Shown here: one piece after another, positions 22,803-34,348 of the stretch | How the letters are laid out: each line of letters begins with the position of its first letter | How positions within the stretch are numbered: the first letter of the stretch is position 1 | NCBI GenBank assembly: GCA_028821995.1 | Contig: JAPKEQ010000007.1 | Coordinates: forward strand, 1-35,502 | Reading direction: 5' to 3' | DNA length: 35,502 nucleotides | From: Alphaproteobacteria bacterium | GTDB taxonomy: Bacteria; Pseudomonadota; Alphaproteobacteria; UBA2136; JAPKEQ01 | The notes under the pieces: model-generated | Database searches by the model: none | Told to the model about the DNA's origin: nothing | What the model saw: only the letters and a program-made list of their open reading frames with translations | Program-made: the position numbers and the translations under genes

Positions 22803-24050
22803 ATGTCCACGCAGCCGAGCCCCCCTAAACGGGGTATGCGCTATTCACCGATTCTCGCAAGTCATGCACAATTTGCTGACATGCTGCGAGCTTATGGTGG
22901 ATACGAAAACATTGATCCTGTACTGATGGCTACTGGCCACATTACGATGATGCAAATTGAAGAGAACGAGAAAAACCCGTTTAAGGGCAATATTCAGGGC
23001 ATGATCCTGGATGGCGACCCTGGTACAGGCAAATCGTTCTTCGCAAAAGCCATTGCCAACGCTTTTGATGGCCGGTTTCTGGTGCACCTTGGTAACCCAG
23101 ACGCTGACCACACCGAACTTGTGCGGGGTATTAACCCTGTAGAAGTTGCAAAAGCCATGGCTGGTCAAACTTTAACCACAACAGATGAATCCGGCAATGC
23201 AGTTCAGGTGACGATTCGAGAGGAGCATATTTATACTCTCGGTAAACTTCTGGAAGCTTTTTTGAGCTCCCATGAAAAATTCACTGTTCTGCTGTTTGAC
23301 GAGGCGGAAAAAAACCGCTTTTCTGTACAAACTGCCCTTCTGACAATTCTGCAAGATGGCGAAATTCCGCTGTCTGGTAAAATTATGGATGAAGATGGTG
23401 AAGCCGTAACCTCAAATGGCCCGTTCAGCCAAATTGTACACGCTCGTCGTGACAATCTGTTGATTCTGGCTGCCAAAAACAAAGAGCGTGACCTTTATGA
23501 TGCGACAATGCGTCGTTTTCGTGTGGTCTATGCGGGCTATCCTAGCCCCCAAAAAGAACTTGAAATTTTGTCAAAACAGCACGGCGCCCCGCAAGAGGTG
23601 ACTGCTGCCGATGAAGCCAGGTTCAAAGCTCTACTTAAAACACCTGAAGCCTTTATGGGCAATGTGCAGGTTCGACATCTGGAAACACGCGTGAAGCAAG
23701 AGCTGAAACGTATCGTGAGAGCCGCCAGCGGCCTTCGTGGTGATCCAGGTATCACAAAAAAGCCTTCATATCCCGAAGTGAGCCGCATGGTTCAAGACTT
23801 CATGTTGGTTGCCAAATATTTGGTGCATGTTGAGCAATCTCGCTCAAGCCCAGATAAAAAGATCTATCGCAGTGAGTTGTTTAGGAAAGTTCTGACACAA
23901 CTCTATGTGAACGGTCTGGTTCAACGCCAAGAAGAACAATCTCGCGCAGCTAAGACGCTGGGTGATGTTCGTGGCGCAGGACCTGGCTTCCTTAAAGCTA
24001 TTCTTCGTGCCATAGAAGGAGAAGATTATACCCTGACTTACGGAGAGTAA
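22803..24050 (+). CDS. MoxR/CobS-like AAA+ ATPase
   Basis: A 415-aa AAA+ protein. Walker A is GDPGTGKS (71-78), Walker B is VLLFDEAEK (about 162-170), and a sensor-like ILAAKNKERD with the downstream arginine-rich DATMRRFRV follow the MoxR/CobS pattern. The last 150 residues are helical and charged. MoxR ATPases usually act with a von Willebrand A (VWA) protein to remodel or insert a metal into a target complex; a VWA gene lies 421 nt downstream, which fits. The start has an excellent GGAGGTG. CTG leucine codons dominate, whereas neighbours favour CTT/CTC, so horizontal origin (possibly phage, where CobS-like genes are known) is possible. The target is unknown. Confidence 0.85.
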   Translation: MSTQPSPPKRGMRYSPILASHAQFADMLRAYGGYENIDPVLMATGHITMMQIEENEKNPFKGNIQGMILDGDPGTGKSFFAKAIANAFDGRFLVHLGNPDADHTELVRGINPVEVAKAMAGQTLTTTDESGNAVQVTIREEHIYTLGKLLEAFLSSHEKFTVLLFDEAEKNRFSVQTALLTILQDGEIPLSGKIMDEDGEAVTSNGPFSQIVHARRDNLLILAAKNKERDLYDATMRRFRVVYAGYPSPQKELEILSKQHGAPQEVTAADEARFKALLKTPEAFMGNVQVRHLETRVKQELKRIVRAASGLRGDPGITKKPSYPEVSRMVQDFMLVAKYLVHVEQSRSSPDKKIYRSELFRKVLTQLYVNGLVQRQEEQSRAAKTLGDVRGAGPGFLKAILRAIEGEDYTLTYGE

Positions 24051-24384
24051 GACTGGGTATCACGAGATTTGGGCGGGAGTTCCTCGTAGCTTGCTACGGC
24101 ATGCCTCCCCCCAAGCATCCGGTGCCGTCCTGTATCGTATGAATAATAATAATTGTGGCTAAGAGCCACACCTGGACCCTGCAGTCGTACCGCCCTCAAC
24201 GAGCGGTGCCTGTGGAGTGCGGTGAAAGCCGCCGTATTAAGGCCCTGTCGCAATATTATCTGGCCCTCTAGGACGAAAGTCTTACGGTTAAGAGTGTTGC
24301 ACCCTACTGTTGGCCTGCAAAGAGACGTTGGACAGTAGGTTTCGATTTAAAGAAGGGTGGTCGCGTGCGACCATCCTTTTTTTT
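24051..24384 (+). ncRNA. Candidate structured RNA / attenuated leader between AAA+ and VWA genes
   Basis: About 330 nt without a credible ORF, GC-richer than the genes around it and full of inverted repeats. A stem 24069-24079 with 24105-24114 (TTGGG/CCCAA plus GGGAG/CTCCC) encloses the hairpin CGTAG-cttg-CTACG. Others are GTGGCT-aag-AGCCAC (24155-24169), ACCGC…GCGGT (24189-24206), GCGG…CCGC (about 24219-24232), AGGAC-GAAA-GTCTT with a GNRA-type loop (24270-24283), and CCTACTGT…ACAGTAGG (24303-24339). It ends in a strong terminator. It could be an independent ncRNA or a leader controlling the VWA gene 88 nt further on. I could not match it to tmRNA, RNase P, SRP, 6S or a cobalamin riboswitch. 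Confidence 0.55.
24353..24384 (+). terminator. Strong rho-independent terminator closing the structured RNA
   Basis: AAGGGTGGTCGC-gt-GCGACCATCCTT forms a stem of up to 12 pairs followed by eight Ts. It lies in the gap, not at the end of a coding gene: 303 nt after the AAA+ stop and 88 nt before the VWA start. That placement fits the 3' end of a small RNA or an attenuator. Confidence 0.9.
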
Positions 24385-24471
24385 ATGCAAATGTCTCAAG
24401 CAAACATTAATATCTCGTGTGCCAATCTTGGCATCTTTCTATGTGTTCTCTTATTCACAAAGGAGTATGCC

Positions 24472-26400
24472 ATGTCTGGCAATAATAATGATCTACCCCC
24501 TGAGGTAGAACAGCGTATTAAAGAGCTTCGCGCTCTTATCAAACACTACATCAATCCCAACGCTAAATCTAAAGCCACCTTTGATAAGGAATATGGCCAG
24601 CTCACGCCTGAGCATATGATGGAGATGATGGCAGAGCTCATGGGGCTTGAAGGGCAACTTCCCGAAGATTGGGAAGGGCTTTTGGAATCTCATGAAGAAA
24701 ACTTGAAAAACATTATGGATCAGGCTGATAGCTTAGAGCTGCAAGCTGCCCTAAACAGGTATGCCCAGCGCATGAGCACAGCAGAGACCATTCGCCAAAG
24801 TCACCCTGAGGCTGCTGAGCTGATTGAAAAAATCAAACAGGAGCGTCAATCCTTTATCTCCAAAATGATCTCCGCCTCAGAAGAGAGCGAAGATGATTCG
24901 GAAGGAGAAGATGAAGAGTCTGAAGATTCGCAAGAAGGCGAAGACTCTGATAGTGATGATGACGGCGATGACAGTGATGAAGATGGCGACGGTGATCCTG
25001 ATGAAAGTGATCAGGATGGAGAAGATGGAAGCGAGAGTGACGATTCTGATAATTCTCAGGATAGTGACGCGCAAAATGACTCTGACTCTCAGAGCAAAGA
25101 CCCATCAGATTCACAAGATCAGAGCAAAGAACCTTCAGACCAACAATCTGATAATACATCGCAAGACAACCAAACTCAGGAAGATCAATCTCAAGATGAT
25201 ACCTCTGATGGAGACCCAGAAGATGGGGAGCTTGATGACGGTGAAGTTGAAGAGACGGATCCTGAATCTTACGCCGATGATATGGCCGATAACGCTGACA
25301 GCCAACCCCAAGAAGAGGGAGAGGAAGAAAGCGATGATGGCGATGGCGACGGCGATGGTGACGATGAAGGCGAAGGTGATGATGAAGGCGGTGACGGCGA
25401 AGGTGAAGGCGAAGGTGACGACGGCAACAGCCCTGGTGAGCCTGGTGAGAGTGATGGAGACGACGATGACGGCTTCTCATATGGTTTTGAACAGCCAGAA
25501 ACACCACCTCCCGGTACGTTCCAAATCTCCAATGAAGAACCTGACCCTATTGCTGTTAGCAAGCTCATGCAATCTTTGCAGGCATTAATTGCCCGTGACC
25601 CTGAAGAGCCGACACAGGCGCCTCGCTGGAACATGGACAAACTGGTCAGGCTTATGCTGGAACCAGGTGCTGATTTGACTCGCGCTAAAGAGCCGACACA
25701 AATCCCGCAAGATGTTGTGTTCATCTTTGATAACTCAGGTAGTATGAATGAGTTTGAGCAAGCTGCACGCCGCCTTGCGCAAGCTGTTGGTAAAGCTGCT
25801 GATTTAGGCTCATCCCACGTCGTGTCTATCGTGACGTCCAACGGCGAATTTAGCCAACATGTTAGCACTGTTGACGCTATGGGGGAAAAAGATCCGTTCC
25901 ATCCTTCAAGCCGCACCAACGATAGCGGCGGATGGTTTATTAACGGTGAATTTAAAGGGCTTTTGCCTTTTGACCCTGGTACATATAACCGTGATGATCA
26001 TTGTGCGCGCTGGGAATGGTTCCTTAAAAAGGAGCTACCTCGCAAATACAATATTACGCCTAAAGTGGTGCTCTACTTCAGCGATGAACACGGTTCCATT
26101 CAGTGGTGCTATATGTCTCAACGCTTAAAGGAGATGGAGCATATTTGGCTTGATCCTAAGATTCGTCAGTTACCTGATGGTAGTACCATGTCTGGTGCAA
26201 CCAAATGGCCGCGGGGTCTTTTTCCTGAAAATATGCAGGGCATGACCAATGACGCTATGTACGATAAGAGTAGTGGCTATGAAGAGCTCTTTTGCAAATT
26301 TAAAGGCATCTACTTTTCGAACGTAGGCGGCGATACGAGTAATGAATATTCCACTGAGGATGACGTTTGTAACGCCTTGAAGCAAGTTGCAGGACTCTAA
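24472..26400 (+). CDS. CobT-like von Willebrand A domain protein with long acidic linker
   Basis: A 642-aa protein from ATG 24472 (AAAGGAG upstream); the track ORF starts 54 codons too early, inside the terminator. Residues 1-135 are helical and charged (LPPEVEQRIKELRALIKHY). Residues about 136-333 are almost only Asp, Glu, Ser, Gly and Gln. The C-terminal 300 residues form a VWA domain with the metal-ion-dependent adhesion (MIDAS) motif DNSGSM at about 420. A helical N-terminus, acidic linker and C-terminal VWA is the layout of cobaltochelatase CobT and phage CobT-like proteins. The VWA part has an unusual Trp-rich tail (GWFINGEFKG; CARWEWFLKKEL). It very probably works with the AAA+ protein upstream. 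No cobalamin genes are near, so a cobalt-chelatase role is not supported. Confidence 0.85.
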   Translation: MSGNNNDLPPEVEQRIKELRALIKHYINPNAKSKATFDKEYGQLTPEHMMEMMAELMGLEGQLPEDWEGLLESHEENLKNIMDQADSLELQAALNRYAQRMSTAETIRQSHPEAAELIEKIKQERQSFISKMISASEESEDDSEGEDEESEDSQEGEDSDSDDDGDDSDEDGDGDPDESDQDGEDGSESDDSDNSQDSDAQNDSDSQSKDPSDSQDQSKEPSDQQSDNTSQDNQTQEDQSQDDTSDGDPEDGELDDGEVEETDPESYADDMADNADSQPQEEGEEESDDGDGDGDGDDEGEGDDEGGDGEGEGEGDDGNSPGEPGESDGDDDDGFSYGFEQPETPPPGTFQISNEEPDPIAVSKLMQSLQALIARDPEEPTQAPRWNMDKLVRLMLEPGADLTRAKEPTQIPQDVVFIFDNSGSMNEFEQAARRLAQAVGKAADLGSSHVVSIVTSNGEFSQHVSTVDAMGEKDPFHPSSRTNDSGGWFINGEFKGLLPFDPGTYNRDDHCARWEWFLKKELPRKYNITPKVVLYFSDEHGSIQWCYMSQRLKEMEHIWLDPKIRQLPDGSTMSGATKWPRGLFPENMQGMTNDAMYDKSSGYEELFCKFKGIYFSNVGGDTSNEYSTEDDVCNALKQVAGL

Positions 26401-26408
26401 AACGATTT

Positions 26409-26438
26409 AAAACACCCCCTTTTGGGGGTGTTTTTTTA
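26409..26438 (+). terminator. Bidirectional terminator between the VWA gene and the acyl-CoA ligase
   Basis: AACACCCCC-TTTT-GGGGGTGTT is a perfect 9-bp stem followed by a T-run on the plus strand and by TTTTAAAT on the minus strand. It lies 10 nt after the VWA stop and abuts the stop codon of the convergent ligase gene, so it can serve both. Confidence 0.9.
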
Positions 26439-28183: not shown

Positions 28184-30190
28184 TTAAAGCTGACTATCCT
28201 CATCAAGCGCACCACCAAGTTCAGAGCTCTTCAAATCACTGCCATCAAGCAAATGTTGCTCAGCACTGTTTTGTTTACTCACTTGCTCTTGCTGTCGGCC
28301 TTCTTGCTCCATAAGTTTCAACTCTTCAATTAAATCATCAATAGAAATCATACTCCAAAACGCAGCGTAATATAAACCTGGCTGCTCCCTATAAAGCCTA
28401 TGTCTCAATCTCATAAGTTCTAAACCTTGAGAACGCATGCCCATAAGTGCAGTATAAAAGCCTGGAGAAATTCTATCTAACTCGTCAGGTCTATCATTAG
28501 GCCAAAGTTGATGCGCAGAACTTTCAAGTATGTCATCGCTCACATGTTCAAGATGAAGCGTAAACCACTCAGTAACTTTATCCAGATTGACCTCATCTCC
28601 CAAGTAGCGAGTTAAAAATGGATAATCTTCAAGCGGTCGCCCTGTTGCAATTTTTAAATTTTCAACATCAGAAACCCACCACACTTGACCTTCAACCTCT
28701 TTTGCATAGTAACTAGGAACCACATTGGAACGTATAACAGGCAGCAGCCTTTGCGCCAAATTTGTTGGTGGGGTTATATTCTCTAGTCTATTTTTGGGGG
28801 CAAGCTCTGGAAACCACCAATTATCGAGTTCATACTCAAACTCTACAGGAAGTGGGTGATACCCTAAAGTACAAGATTCTTCATTAAGTGGCTTTCTACG
28901 AATAGCTGAATTAATGGCGATATCATTTGCCTGCCGTGCTTGATAGACATTTTCATCAATCAGGTCATAGCCGTTCATAATGCTAATTGGGTAAAATTTT
29001 GTCTTCATGTGTTCAGGTACAGAAATGGTCTCTGAATTATTTTCAGCAGGTGACTTAAAGGCACGCACCACCTCATCCACGCTCTTGTAGTAATAATGAA
29101 GAGGATCCCATAAAGGACCTGAAAGTTGCATAAACTTGCCTGTAACATGATCCCATCCAGAAAGAGCCGGCTCTTCAAAGTGGCTTGGGTGCGTAGGTAG
29201 ATGGCAAGATCCCCACTCAGCTACGCAACGGGTATGAGGCAAACGTAAATCTGGAAAGTAAGGCTCTGGGTCATTTACATGAGACGACTTATAACCGCTT
29301 CCATCACTCACGATGACTTGAGCAGGCTCAATACGACGAGACATAGCAATGCCAGGCCTCTTCACTTCCAAAATGGTTCCTTTAGGCGCATCACTTGGAG
29401 CAGTGCTAATAATTTTATGAAGACCCTCTACTGCTCTGCCAGGCCAAAAATCTTCAAGCTCAAAATCAGCGGTTACTTTGTTATAGCCATTATGCGCTTC
29501 AAAGGTTGGAATAACAGTTACACCTTTTTCAAAAAGGGCCTCATACCAAGATTCACCATCATGTTTTTCATGCCATTGCTCGTAACTTAAATTACCGCGC
29601 GCATCCCATTTGCTAAAGAAATCAGCTGCTGAGCTTTCCACTTCTGTAAGAGTTAGCCCTTCTGACTTCACATAAAGATACTCTGTCTGAGGCAGTTTCC
29701 ACCCATCAATATAAAAAGTATCCAAACGTAGCTTATATGGGTATAAATTCGGGTTCTTATAGCGTAAAAACTTAGGAATATGTTCATTTCCAGATTCCTT
29801 TGCATCAGGAGCAATAGACATATCTAAGCTCCTAAAAGAGGTAAGAATACATTCTGTCTGATCTGGCGCCGCTGGCTGGCTAAAGCGTGGGAACATCTTA
29901 TCAATGCTTTTCCACTCTTCATCAAACTTAACCTCAGGTCCATGCCCAATATGAATGACTCTCCCGCTCAAATCCCTCACACAGGTTGGAGATAAGCTCA
30001 CAAGATGAGAAAGCTTTACGCCTTGGCCATATTCACAAGAAATATTTGCGTTATTACCATGAGAAGGCTGACGCTTATTAACAAGGTTTAAATCTCTCAG
30101 TAAGCCAGAGTAGAAAGGCCAAGATACCTTCATGTGAGGGTTCTGGCCTCTCAAGTTATTCCATACAAATGCTTTATTATTTTTATTCAT
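28184..30190 (-). CDS. Uncharacterised 668-aa protein linked to the TraG-like gene
   Basis: I do not recognise this family. The product has no signal peptide and no membrane helix, so it is probably cytoplasmic. It is rich in Trp, Tyr, His and Pro (WPFYSGLLRDL; FDEEWKSIDKMFPRFSQP; GPLWDPLHYYYKSVDEV; ELDNWWFPELAPKNRLENITPP). The last 100 residues are helical (SPGFYTALMGMRSQGLELMRLRHRLYREQPGLYYAAFWSMISIDDLIEELKLMEQEGRQQEQ) and end in an acidic, flexible tail (DGSDLKSSELGGALDEDSQL), similar in style to a secretion or docking tail. No nucleotide-binding or catalytic motif is visible. It starts 14 nt after the TraG-like stop (TAGGA upstream), so the two are almost surely co-transcribed. A coupling, chaperone or effector role is inference only. 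Confidence 0.8.
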   Translation of the reverse strand: MNKNNKAFVWNNLRGQNPHMKVSWPFYSGLLRDLNLVNKRQPSHGNNANISCEYGQGVKLSHLVSLSPTCVRDLSGRVIHIGHGPEVKFDEEWKSIDKMFPRFSQPAAPDQTECILTSFRSLDMSIAPDAKESGNEHIPKFLRYKNPNLYPYKLRLDTFYIDGWKLPQTEYLYVKSEGLTLTEVESSAADFFSKWDARGNLSYEQWHEKHDGESWYEALFEKGVTVIPTFEAHNGYNKVTADFELEDFWPGRAVEGLHKIISTAPSDAPKGTILEVKRPGIAMSRRIEPAQVIVSDGSGYKSSHVNDPEPYFPDLRLPHTRCVAEWGSCHLPTHPSHFEEPALSGWDHVTGKFMQLSGPLWDPLHYYYKSVDEVVRAFKSPAENNSETISVPEHMKTKFYPISIMNGYDLIDENVYQARQANDIAINSAIRRKPLNEESCTLGYHPLPVEFEYELDNWWFPELAPKNRLENITPPTNLAQRLLPVIRSNVVPSYYAKEVEGQVWWVSDVENLKIATGRPLEDYPFLTRYLGDEVNLDKVTEWFTLHLEHVSDDILESSAHQLWPNDRPDELDRISPGFYTALMGMRSQGLELMRLRHRLYREQPGLYYAAFWSMISIDDLIEELKLMEQEGRQQEQVSKQNSAEQHLLDGSDLKSSELGGALDEDSQL

Positions 30191-30204
30191 TACATATTCC
30201 TAGT

Positions 30205-33200
30205 TTAAGTTACCCAGTCTTCGGTATTCATAGATGATTTTTTAGGGGCTGCATTCAGTCCTTCACGAGACTCTAGCTCATGCATTTTTTTCGTGATCAT
30301 TTTCCCATCAGAACCTTTAACTTGGACATTTTCCCATTTTAATTTCGAAATCATGTCATCCGTCATCCCTTGAGCTTTAAGCGCTTCTTGAGATACATGA
30401 TACTGTGCAGAACCTGTTTTTAGGTTTTGCTGCTTAGAGTAATGCTGGTCTAACGTTCCTGCCTGATGCATATCACTCATATGTTGATTCATACTGTTAA
30501 AGGAACTATTAATATTGGGCTGAGCATTTTTCATGCTTCCTTTTGCTTGAATCCACATTTTAGCAATCTTATCCTGCATCTCATCATGATAGGAAGATAG
30601 CCCTCTCTCTGAATTCGCATCTTTTTCAATAGGTGCCTTTAACTTAGAAGCTGCCGTTCCTGATTTAGTCATCTTAGCATAAGCTCTTTTCGCGCTATCT
30701 TTGCTTTCATTTAGAGCCATATCATCAGGATCAGACTCACCTAATCTTTGAGACAGTCCTCCACCAGCAGAGTTACGTCTAAAGCTTGCACGACCTGTTC
30801 TTGCGTTTGCTGACCCCATGTAGCCATCCCTGACAGAATCTCCAAGTAACATAGAGGCACCAGGTAGGGCAGATACTGTAGCAAGCGCACCAGCAGCGCC
30901 ACCGAATGCACTTGAACTAACTCTTGCAGCTCCGCCAAGTCCAACTTTATCTAATTTTTCTTCGGCAGCATTAGAGAGAGACTGTCCTTTTTCTAGAAGA
31001 GATCCAGTTCCCCTACCAACCGCTTGAGTTCCTTTAGCAAGGGTTCTGGCTGCCACAATTGGCGCTGCCCCATAAGCCATAGCTTCTTGGAAAGAAACCT
31101 GTCCTGCTTTATCCATGCTTGTAAGATGCTTAACAAACGATCCTGAATCCTTCATGCCAAATAGAAGCATACCAGCAAGAGAGAATAAACTTACACTTGC
31201 CGTTAAATGCGCCATAACGAGCATAGCTTTATAAAGTTCAGGATCACCTACATTGGTACCTTCAACCCAAAACATAAGTGATACAAATGCATGGTCAATA
31301 AGGATAAGTGCAATTGAAACTGTTTTAAGGAATGCTACAGCCACAACAGGTGCAACCAATACTGCACTTGCTTGCATTGGCACAGCAATACCCATAAGGA
31401 AAGCAAATGGTGTCATAAAGAGTGCAAGGGCTAACCCGTAAGAAATAATAACAGGCATAAGCTTCATATAAGCTCCATAAACAAAACCTTGTACAGCAGA
31501 TGCAATAGAAAGCCCCACTTTAACAACAACGCTACCCACCGCTGCACTGTAAGAATTGACGCCTCCATAACTCGTCGCTCCATTAGGACTTGCGGTAATG
31601 CTTGAAAAGTTACCCGTTTGAGAATTTCCCCAAGCTGACTTCATATCTCCGGCAAAACTTTGTGCCCATAGGCTCATGCTACAATCTAGGCCACCATTTT
31701 TACAAAAATATTCGGTTGGCCCCCAGGAATTATCAGGAGTATCGACTTCACCCGTACCACATCCGCTCCATGTCGAAGCGCCTGTAGTCGAATCAATCCT
31801 CTGTATGCACCCCTCTCTCATAAGCATCATTCTGGCAGACTCTGCAAGAGATGCATGCACTTTTCGGATATTAGGGTCACTTGATGAATTTAAGAAGCTA
31901 GGGTCTAGCAAATACTGTCCCTGACTAATGGTTAGCGGTTCTCTAAAGTCAATCATATCCCCCGAAGGCGTTGAAGGTATAAGTCCTGCTTCTTCTAGTG
32001 CATAAAATTTACGGCTCCAAATAAGAGCTGCAAAATCAAGGCAGCTTTGCACAGCTGGATTAAAGTTATTCCCTACAGAAGTAGTAATGCCGCCTAAGTC
32101 TGAAATAGCACCATAAGAACGGGGCAAAAGGCCACGGTGAGCAAGAGTACCACTACCAACAAGAGTCACGCTTGGCACCCCTGATTTTCTAGCTGTTACA
32201 TATGGAATATAAAGCTGAACAGGGTAATTTGCCATGGCACTATTAAGAGAATCGTACCTTCCATCAGCTCCAGCAAAAACAGATGAAGCTCTTCTGAACT
32301 CTTCAGCAGAAGGAATAAAACCATAATTTCCTGTTCTATCAGGGAAAATTTGGCCGGCAGCTAGTACGCTGACTGCACCACTTCCACCCCAAAGCACTGC
32401 TCGCGCTATTGGGATAACTGGCTCTCGATCCCGCGGTGTCTCTGTTACAGCAGTACCATCAACAGATAGAGTGTCATCAGCCTCTAAATGATAGTTATAT
32501 GGATCCGGTTCATAAGCAGCTTCTTTTGTTCCCCATAACCAGTGATCTGATATCACATAATCATTATCCTCCAAAAGTAAATCATTGAAAATATGGTTTT
32601 TATTATTCCCAATCGTTCCACGATAAGGGAACCCCACTCTTGTAGTACTTACTGATTTTCGTTCTAATTTATAATCAATTAGAGCCTGTATAGATGAATC
32701 AACATTAATTGATGCAATTACAGCATCCATTGCAGATTTTCTTGCTTCATATGCAGGGTTACCTGTTCCTTCTGGCATAACAATAGACTTAGCATAATCA
32801 TCTGGGTGTAGCCTTGCTGTTGCAGCCCTAACCGGATAAACACGTTTATCTGCAAAACCGCTGTAATAAACTTCATTTGCTCTTATTGCATCGCTATACG
32901 TAAACGTATCTTCTGCTGCAAGTTTCAACTGAGAGGCAGGGATACTAGCAAAATCCGCCATATTTTTAACAACGTCATGGACAGGGCATATTTCAGAATA
33001 AACGGCCTCATAATATTGTATGTTCTGATTGTTTTTAACTGTATCAGAAAGAAGTGAACTGTCATTATAAATGCCTGTAACATCTCCTGGGGTTGTTTGG
33101 TTTTCAGCGCCTCCCCATAATGCTTGCAGTAAAGTTCTCTCAATTGCTGTGAAAAAATGGATGGCTACAAGCTGAGGGGTAAAGGCACCAAACTGGTCCA

Positions 33201-33681
33201 TATTATCCGTAATTCTTGTTGGTAAAGCATCTGAAATATTACCAGCAATACTCGCATCGACGCCAGACTTACAAACAATTTCCATAGACAATGCATCATT
33301 TGGCGGAACAGGGCAATCCCATGCATCCTGATGGCTACCTAGCGGGTAGAAGAATAAAGAGCTATCACTTGGATTAGGCCCTACAATTAAAATAAATACT
33401 AAAAATAAATAACAAAAGATTGTCATGAAATTATGGTTTTTAGGAATAAGTAGAATAAGAAGTCCACCAATCAAGGCAAACGTTAAAGCAAGTGTTTGTA
33501 AGCCGCCATTTTTAAAAAGATCAAAATAAAAATCTTGTTGTGCAAAGCCTACAACTGTCATAAGCCGGTGTTCACCGACTACGCCTAAATCTGGAAACTC
33601 AGCATAAGCCTCAACAGCTCCTAGTATAACAGCAAAAAACACCCCAAGAAAAAGGCACAATCTTCCAGCATAAAATGACAT
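30205..33681 (-). CDS. TraG-N-like conjugation / type IV secretion membrane protein
   Basis: About 1158 aa from ATG 33681 (the track uses GTG 33693). Residues 1-27 are a signal peptide or anchor (LCLFLGVFFAVILGAVEAYA). Two helices follow (GGLQTLALTFALIGGLLILLI; NFMTIFCYLFLVFILIVGP), then about 600 residues probably periplasmic with several Cys, then at about 725-880 a helix cluster (GFVYGAYMKLMPVIISYGLALALFMTPFAFLMGIAVP; VLVAPVVAVAFLKTVSIALILIDHAFVSLMFW). The last 270 residues are hydrophilic, Ser/Ala/Lys/Gln-rich. This layout, and the PQLVAIHFFTAIERTLLQALWGG segment, resemble the TraG N-terminal family of F-type conjugation systems; a DotA/TraY relative is the alternative. It is divergent from a pilin-like gene. 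No secretion ATPase or relaxase is in the window. Confidence 0.72.
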   Translation of the reverse strand: MSFYAGRLCLFLGVFFAVILGAVEAYAEFPDLGVVGEHRLMTVVGFAQQDFYFDLFKNGGLQTLALTFALIGGLLILLIPKNHNFMTIFCYLFLVFILIVGPNPSDSSLFFYPLGSHQDAWDCPVPPNDALSMEIVCKSGVDASIAGNISDALPTRITDNMDQFGAFTPQLVAIHFFTAIERTLLQALWGGAENQTTPGDVTGIYNDSSLLSDTVKNNQNIQYYEAVYSEICPVHDVVKNMADFASIPASQLKLAAEDTFTYSDAIRANEVYYSGFADKRVYPVRAATARLHPDDYAKSIVMPEGTGNPAYEARKSAMDAVIASINVDSSIQALIDYKLERKSVSTTRVGFPYRGTIGNNKNHIFNDLLLEDNDYVISDHWLWGTKEAAYEPDPYNYHLEADDTLSVDGTAVTETPRDREPVIPIARAVLWGGSGAVSVLAAGQIFPDRTGNYGFIPSAEEFRRASSVFAGADGRYDSLNSAMANYPVQLYIPYVTARKSGVPSVTLVGSGTLAHRGLLPRSYGAISDLGGITTSVGNNFNPAVQSCLDFAALIWSRKFYALEEAGLIPSTPSGDMIDFREPLTISQGQYLLDPSFLNSSSDPNIRKVHASLAESARMMLMREGCIQRIDSTTGASTWSGCGTGEVDTPDNSWGPTEYFCKNGGLDCSMSLWAQSFAGDMKSAWGNSQTGNFSSITASPNGATSYGGVNSYSAAVGSVVVKVGLSIASAVQGFVYGAYMKLMPVIISYGLALALFMTPFAFLMGIAVPMQASAVLVAPVVAVAFLKTVSIALILIDHAFVSLMFWVEGTNVGDPELYKAMLVMAHLTASVSLFSLAGMLLFGMKDSGSFVKHLTSMDKAGQVSFQEAMAYGAAPIVAARTLAKGTQAVGRGTGSLLEKGQSLSNAAEEKLDKVGLGGAARVSSSAFGGAAGALATVSALPGASMLLGDSVRDGYMGSANARTGRASFRRNSAGGGLSQRLGESDPDDMALNESKDSAKRAYAKMTKSGTAASKLKAPIEKDANSERGLSSYHDEMQDKIAKMWIQAKGSMKNAQPNINSSFNSMNQHMSDMHQAGTLDQHYSKQQNLKTGSAQYHVSQEALKAQGMTDDMISKLKWENVQVKGSDGKMITKKMHELESREGLNAAPKKSSMNTEDWVT

Positions 33682-33693
33682 ATGTCTACCCAC

Positions 33694-33841: not shown

Positions 33842-34348
33842 ATGCAAAAAAAAATGAACCTATTTTTTATTTTAACCTTATTTATATTAAGCCTTAGTTG
33901 CTTTCAAGAAGCTTTCGCAGCCCCTGTTGGTGGCGCTTCAGCAAATATGGATGAAGTTTACTGCGACGTAAGAGAACTTGTTACAGGTAACGTAGGGACC
34001 CTAATTGGCTTTGCCTTTGCCTTCGCAGGATTTGTTGTACTTCTTATGAAAGGTAGCAATTACGGTATATTTATGATCATTGTTGGTATATCAGTCACAG
34101 CATTTCCTGGATTAATAAATGCTTTTATAGAAGGCATAAGCACTGCATCAAGTGAAGCGGACGATATGACCATTGGCGCATGCGTCAGCGGTGAACTTTC
34201 ATCAGCAACCGCTATTGCAAGGGATGGAGCAGCAGCAGCAACATTTAATCCCATGGACGCTTTAACAAGAAGTGCGCCACCAAGAGAGACAACGGTTGTA
34301 CCGCCTTCAATTGAAGAGTGTGGTCCAGATGTTTCTGGCCCTTGCTAA
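33842..34348 (+). CDS. Pilin/VirB2-TrbC-like small membrane protein
   Basis: A 168-aa exported protein. A signal peptide (MNLFFILTLFILSLSCFQEAFA, then APVGG) is followed by a short segment with a Cys (DEVYCDVRELVTGN) and two hydrophobic helices joined by a short loop (VGTLIGFAFAFAGFVVLLM, then KGSNYG, then IFMIIVGISVTAFPGLINAFI). This is the plan of VirB2/TrbC/TraA major pilins, though those usually end soon after the second helix. Here about 70 extra residues follow, Ser/Thr/Ala/Pro-rich with two Cys (IEECGPDVSGPC). It has its own promoter and terminator and is divergent from the TraG-like gene. A pilin or surface-filament subunit of the same apparatus is likely but unproven. Confidence 0.72.
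   Translation: MQKKMNLFFILTLFILSLSCFQEAFAAPVGGASANMDEVYCDVRELVTGNVGTLIGFAFAFAGFVVLLMKGSNYGIFMIIVGISVTAFPGLINAFIEGISTASSEADDMTIGACVSGELSSATAIARDGAAAATFNPMDALTRSAPPRETTVVPPSIEECGPDVSGPC

Follow-up and report, generated by a model that had tools for sequence, protein, structure and literature searches.

A MoxR-class AAA+/VWA protein pair in Alphaproteobacteria and a structured RNA linked to its ATPase gene

In a 35,502-nt stretch of alphaproteobacterial DNA, referred to here as the window, we find two neighboring genes that very probably encode a MoxR-class AAA+/VWA machine, together with an undescribed structured RNA linked to the pair that, from its sequence, appears to be new. The best-supported reading, which we hold tentatively, is a remodeling machine of the NorQ-NorD/CbbQ-CbbO type with the cognate RNA as a working part. 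A preliminary description of this DNA had named the locus its best candidate for a system not yet described, and the analysis supports it as a good one. The window corresponds to contig C103 of a 1.67-Mb host genome (140 contigs, 85.6% complete). The features under study are as follows.

22803 to 24050, plus strand: MoxR-class AAA+ ATPase, 415 aa, with Walker A, Walker B, and arginine motifs; homologues in genomes G075, G659, and G572.
24051 to 24386, plus strand: predicted structured RNA that ends in an intrinsic-terminator-like hairpin and follows immediately on the ATPase stop codon (fold z score of -4.6; exact ends approximate).
24172 to 24230, plus strand: RNA segment best matching the G572/G659 covariance model (suggestive only); a hairpin with a loop ending in ACGA, plus a small hairpin.
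24472 to 26400, plus strand: VWA/MIDAS protein, 642 aa, with N-terminal helices (residues 10 to 137), an acidic region (about 100 to 363), and a VWA domain (about 360 to 642) carrying DNSGSM.
26409 to 26434, plus strand (reads on the minus strand too): intrinsic-terminator-like hairpin behind the VWA gene.

The ATPase and VWA genes are separated by 421 bp, within which lies the strongly folded, terminator-ended RNA. The VWA reading frame as listed opens with a TTG at 24310 and gives 696 aa; the true start is likely the ATG at 24472, which yields the 642-aa protein, because an AAAGGAG ribosome-binding site precedes it and the homologues begin at the same point. The two proteins are not a chance reading, because homologous pairs exist in other genomes.

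The ATPase belongs to the MoxR/AAA_5 group, having an intact Walker A (GDPGTGKS at residue 71), Walker B (LLFDE at 163), and arginine motif (MRRFR), and it matches Pfam AAA_5 at 1e-9. The VWA protein begins with predicted helices, continues into about 264 aa of acidic sequence (107 D/E and 8 K/R) that is predicted to be disordered, and ends in a domain whose DNSGSM represents the DxSxS of a MIDAS. An AAA+/VWA pair, with N-terminal helices and roughly 200 acidic residues in the second protein, is what the preliminary description had claimed, and the observation is confirmed. All four VWA proteins share, without variation, the DxSxS motif and a conserved D further on; the T position of the MIDAS is uncertain, and the predicted VWA fold is of low confidence. 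Comparison of folds, which had been proposed for both proteins, places the pair nearest to NorQ/NorD: the best PDB matches of the ATPase model in a structure search are NorQ (3.6e-7) and, close behind, CbbQ2 (AlphaFold mean pLDDT of 64, moderate), while the VWA model is nearest to NorD, weakly (E value of 7e-3; mean pLDDT of 56, low). The pair shares with NorQ/NorD and CbbQ/CbbO the AAA+ fold group of the ATPase and the two-protein layout with a probable MIDAS. It differs from both in having no nor or cbb genes nearby and in having a linked RNA, and its VWA protein, unlike NorD and CbbO, has a long acidic region and gives no sequence match to either.

An AAA+ protein followed by one with helical, acidic, and VWA regions is also the order seen in CobS/CobT, where an acidic stretch likewise precedes the VWA domain, and on layout alone the pair could be the CobS/CobT of an aerobic cobaltochelatase. 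However, CobN (PF02514) was absent from the genomes of all four carriers, including the 85.6% complete host genome, whereas control genomes with CobN were matched. A canonical-looking CobS/CobT pair exists separately in the host genome (contig C53, L032 7884 to 10602) and is the sole match there to the Pfam CobT model, which misses the VWA protein of the window, and an hhalign comparison of that protein with the host's own CobT covers 25 columns only, at the MIDAS. Within what an 86% complete host genome can show, the missing CobN, the separate CobS/CobT, and the confinement of CobT likeness to the MIDAS make cobaltochelatase an exceedingly improbable reading. Of the CobS/CobT-like arrangement described beforehand, the layout stands, as does the lack of corrin genes nearby, but the resemblance to CobT itself does not extend past the MIDAS. 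The host's canonical-looking CobS/CobT is also an orphan, with no CobN found.

Both proteins were found together in only three other genomes, all small alphaproteobacterial metagenome-assembled genomes (MAGs), listed here with their accessions and groups.

G075: JAJFIW010000014, OFTM141; carries both proteins.
G659: DJLZ01000005, UBA6503; carries both proteins.
G572: WGLU01000001, RI_95; carries both proteins.

All four carriers have genomes of 1.6 to 2.0 Mb. The window proteins share about 29 to 35% identity with those of the other carriers, which share about 45 to 70% among themselves. A VWA profile matched 4 of 385 genomes of the class, and in the order of G075 it matched three of six genomes, these being the three with at least 90% completeness; by these searches the family appears to be rare. 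No relative of the ATPase was detected in 17 order relatives of the host, one of them from the same genus, and horizontal gain or repeated loss is therefore likely. The ATPase and VWA genes lie 260 kb apart in G659, and the retention of both speaks for a working pair.

The loci of all carriers are chromosomal and lie among housekeeping genes, with phage genes near none of them. An inspection by eye of the ORF translations flanking the pair in the three other carriers, aimed at cobalamin, nor, cbb, gas-vesicle, ravA/viaA, and methanol-dehydrogenase genes, showed none of these; cobaltochelatase, gas-vesicle, RavA/ViaA, and methanol-dehydrogenase genes are the neighbors that the preliminary description had named as pointing to an ordinary role. 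A defense context had also been suggested as something to check, and PADLOC returned nothing beyond a P-loop match, which gives no evidence of defense.

AAA+/VWA pairs of this kind are widely encoded by tailed viruses (PMC8651126; PMC7911831), which raises the possibility of a captured viral "cobST"-type cassette, domesticated in a few bacteria. Profile comparison of the ATPase favors this, with a 98.5% match to gene 10 of halovirus HHTV-2 (E value of 3e-15) versus 63% for the host's own CobS, as does the lack of the window's pair in order relatives. The viral "CobST" of haloviruses (HHTV-2, HCTV-2, and Hardycor1) and cyanophages resembles the window's cassette in its pairing, the role of which is unknown or assumed, and its closest named viral relative, by the AAA+ domain, is HHTV-2 gene 10. 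The likeness is one of the AAA+ domain alone, as is also seen when the G659 ATPase is used as the query against halovirus "CobS" proteins; the viral VWA partners match only at the MIDAS and differ beyond it, and relatives of both proteins were not found together in virus genomes. A tblastn search of 50,697 phage records gave no relative of either window protein, a plasmid collection gave none of the pair, and scans of IMG/VR, which used short exact peptide patterns that could miss distant relatives, gave none either. The window family, by contrast, is found in bacterial chromosomes and, in three of its four carriers, with an RNA, no phage genes surround its carriers, and a tRNA gene that closely follows the VWA gene in the three other carriers marks an old chromosomal site. 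Viral capture is thus quite unlikely, and the "phage-like" label initially given to the cassette is not upheld. Where the shared tRNA gene is complete (L038 7963 to 8038 and L039 8211 to 8285), it is tRNA-Gly(GCC); the third is L031 1 to 43, and the window has no tRNA at this position. An ATPase match in an Acinetobacter "phage" record was rejected, as it sits among bacterial housekeeping genes.

The RNA between the genes, also part of the preliminary description, is borne out by the fold analysis: its 336 nt fold far better than shuffled sequences, they form the strongest fold among 211 tiles of the window, and their 3' end is the terminator-like hairpin. Rfam gave no match above chance, neither at the gathering score nor at an E value of up to 10, ARAGORN gave none, and no copies of the RNA were found in 60 relatives. 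A structured RNA lies immediately downstream of the ATPase stop codon in three of the four genomes (the window, G572, and G659). G572 carries about 420 nt in the same gap, ending in a terminator-like hairpin (z score of -2.8 with flanks), and G659 has about 520 nt directly behind the ATPase (z score of -5.4 with flanks). The G572 and G659 RNAs align with each other (E value of 2e-6 for the pair). In a structure drawn by hand for both, 43 of 43 pairs hold in each and 13 of the 43 are compensated on both sides, compared with 1 to 3 in slid controls; having been drawn from the same two sequences, the structure has an upwardly biased paired percentage, while the compensated pairs are still informative. 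The G572 and G659 RNAs are homologous.

The window RNA resembles this family in lying right after the ATPase stop, in its strong fold, and in its terminator end, and by eye all three RNAs have in common a hairpin with a loop ending in ACGA followed by a small hairpin, a long hairpin capped by GAAA, and a last hairpin before the terminator. An unfiltered search of the window with R1, the covariance model of the G572/G659 RNAs, placed its best match at 24172 to 24230 of the plus strand, inside the RNA (E value of 0.21 for the window as a whole); another weak match fell at 24070 to 24163. The smaller model R2 also ranks 24172 to 24230 first in the window (E value of 0.66), with equal or better scores occurring in unrelated loci. 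That the top match would fall by chance within the one 420-base stretch named beforehand is unlikely, at roughly 0.1 to 1% by our own estimate. We conclude that the window RNA is likely homologous to the G572 and G659 RNAs by place and layout, the sequence likeness being suggestive and not significant. Matches of the RNA models in two further genomes, G627 and G573, lie inside coding genes and were discarded.

In the window and in G572, the RNA lies between the two genes, with its terminator-like hairpin about 85 and 75 bases, respectively, before the VWA start, an arrangement that favors a cis-regulatory element (attenuator or leader) of the downstream VWA gene. This is contradicted in G659, where the VWA gene is far away and the RNA stays with the ATPase and, because it does so, is not a leader of the VWA gene. 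Since the Rfam regulators are also without a match, we regard cis-regulation as improbable.

The fourth carrier, G075, has a simple terminator alone behind its ATPase, and a model search found no RNA elsewhere in its genome; the one short match lies inside a coding gene and was rejected as a homologue. Conservation of the intergenic RNA, which had been proposed as a check, thus extends to G572 and G659 but not to G075, and for the window it is a matter of suggestive sequence likeness. At this locus of G075 (L031 128 to 2261), the VWA protein is also short, at 322 aa, and has neither the helical N terminus nor the acidic region. The joint absence of the RNA and the helical and acidic half of the VWA protein, possibly a joint loss, is a single event and proves little, but it suggests that the two belong together.

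These observations bear on the alternative that comes closest to the preferred reading, namely, a protein-only MoxR/VWA chaperone, similar to NorQD or CbbQO, whose task is the maturation of a single enzyme or complex with genes elsewhere, with the RNA being an independent small RNA or a long 3' untranslated region with its own role. We consider this possible, close behind an RNA-protein remodeling machine. MoxR AAA+/VWA pairs occur widely, mostly with targets yet to be identified; the characterized members of the class found in the literature act on proteins, and NorQ and NorD are the nearest folds. Moreover, the pair persists in G075, where no RNA accompanies it, so that the RNA is dispensable there, which also counts against the RNA as a working part, as does the small sample of four genomes. 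The protein-only alternative is at odds with an RNA that keeps its place behind the ATPase in two orders, even after the VWA gene has moved away, and with the RNA and the N-terminal half of the VWA protein being missing together in G075.

That the pair works as such a machine is inferred from family membership, and its complex formation, RNA binding, target, and action are inferred as well. In a remodeling machine with an RNA part, the ATPase would form a hexameric ring onto which the VWA domain would dock, with the MIDAS metal gripping the target, and ATP hydrolysis would turn or pull the VWA protein, whose N-terminal helical domain would sit on a flexible acidic tether. For NorQD, a VWA finger has been shown in the ring pore, a twisting action on the partner's linker has been proposed, and a parallel to Rea1 has been drawn (PMC13036017). 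The RNA would most likely be the core of a particle that is assembled or remodeled, or a scaffold of the machine, whose target would therefore be a ribonucleoprotein, as it is for Rea1/Mdn1. Rea1/Mdn1 (midasin) is a ribosome-assembly AAA+ protein that acts on an RNA-protein particle; it resembles the window's pair in parts, namely, its AAA+ motor, D/E-rich tether, and MIDAS domain, and differs in being one giant eukaryotic protein; the parallel is an analogy only. By that analogy, the pair could be a miniature bacterial counterpart of Rea1, a two-protein motor that builds or dismantles an RNA-protein particle whose RNA core is a new family encoded at the 3' end of the motor gene, although we consider this proposal doubtful.

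No RNA tied to a MoxR/VWA pair was found in the literature covered, a weak negative, as subscription papers fell outside that coverage. If the pair is tied to its own conserved RNA, it would provide the first RNA-centered target in the class. Such a pair would also be a bacterial counterpart of the ribosome-assembly motors that use a MIDAS, and its RNA would be a new large structured RNA for which a candidate partner can be named.

Several further observations concern the neighborhoods of the pair. A divergent gene for a D-Ala-D-Ala dipeptidase-like protein lies upstream of the ATPase in both genomes of one genus (L048 8605 to 9387, with a Peptidase_M15 match, and L031 2376 to 3140). The gene preceding the VWA gene in G659 encodes a ClpP-like protease with a long additional C-terminal part (L038 4661 to 5767). 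A different AAA+ cassette is present in G258 (L033 1674 to 7309), where a MoxR-like AAA+ gene is followed by one for a 1,181-aa protein with repeats resembling formylglycine-generating-enzyme domains.

The remaining genes of the window look ordinary from their sequences. Upstream of the pair are genes for fatty-acid oxidation, leucine biosynthesis, 4-hydroxyphenylpyruvate dioxygenase, and a fumarylacetoacetase-like hydrolase, and downstream are genes for an acyl-CoA ligase and two large proteins, with an rRNA operon at the end. The two large proteins (668 and 1,162 aa; 28184 to 33693, minus strand) match neither Pfam nor NCBIfam, and the 668-aa protein has a counterpart at 65% identity in a same-genus genome. 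A single TrbC/VirB2-like pilin gene (33842 to 34348), scoring under the Pfam cutoff, adjoins the rRNA operon.
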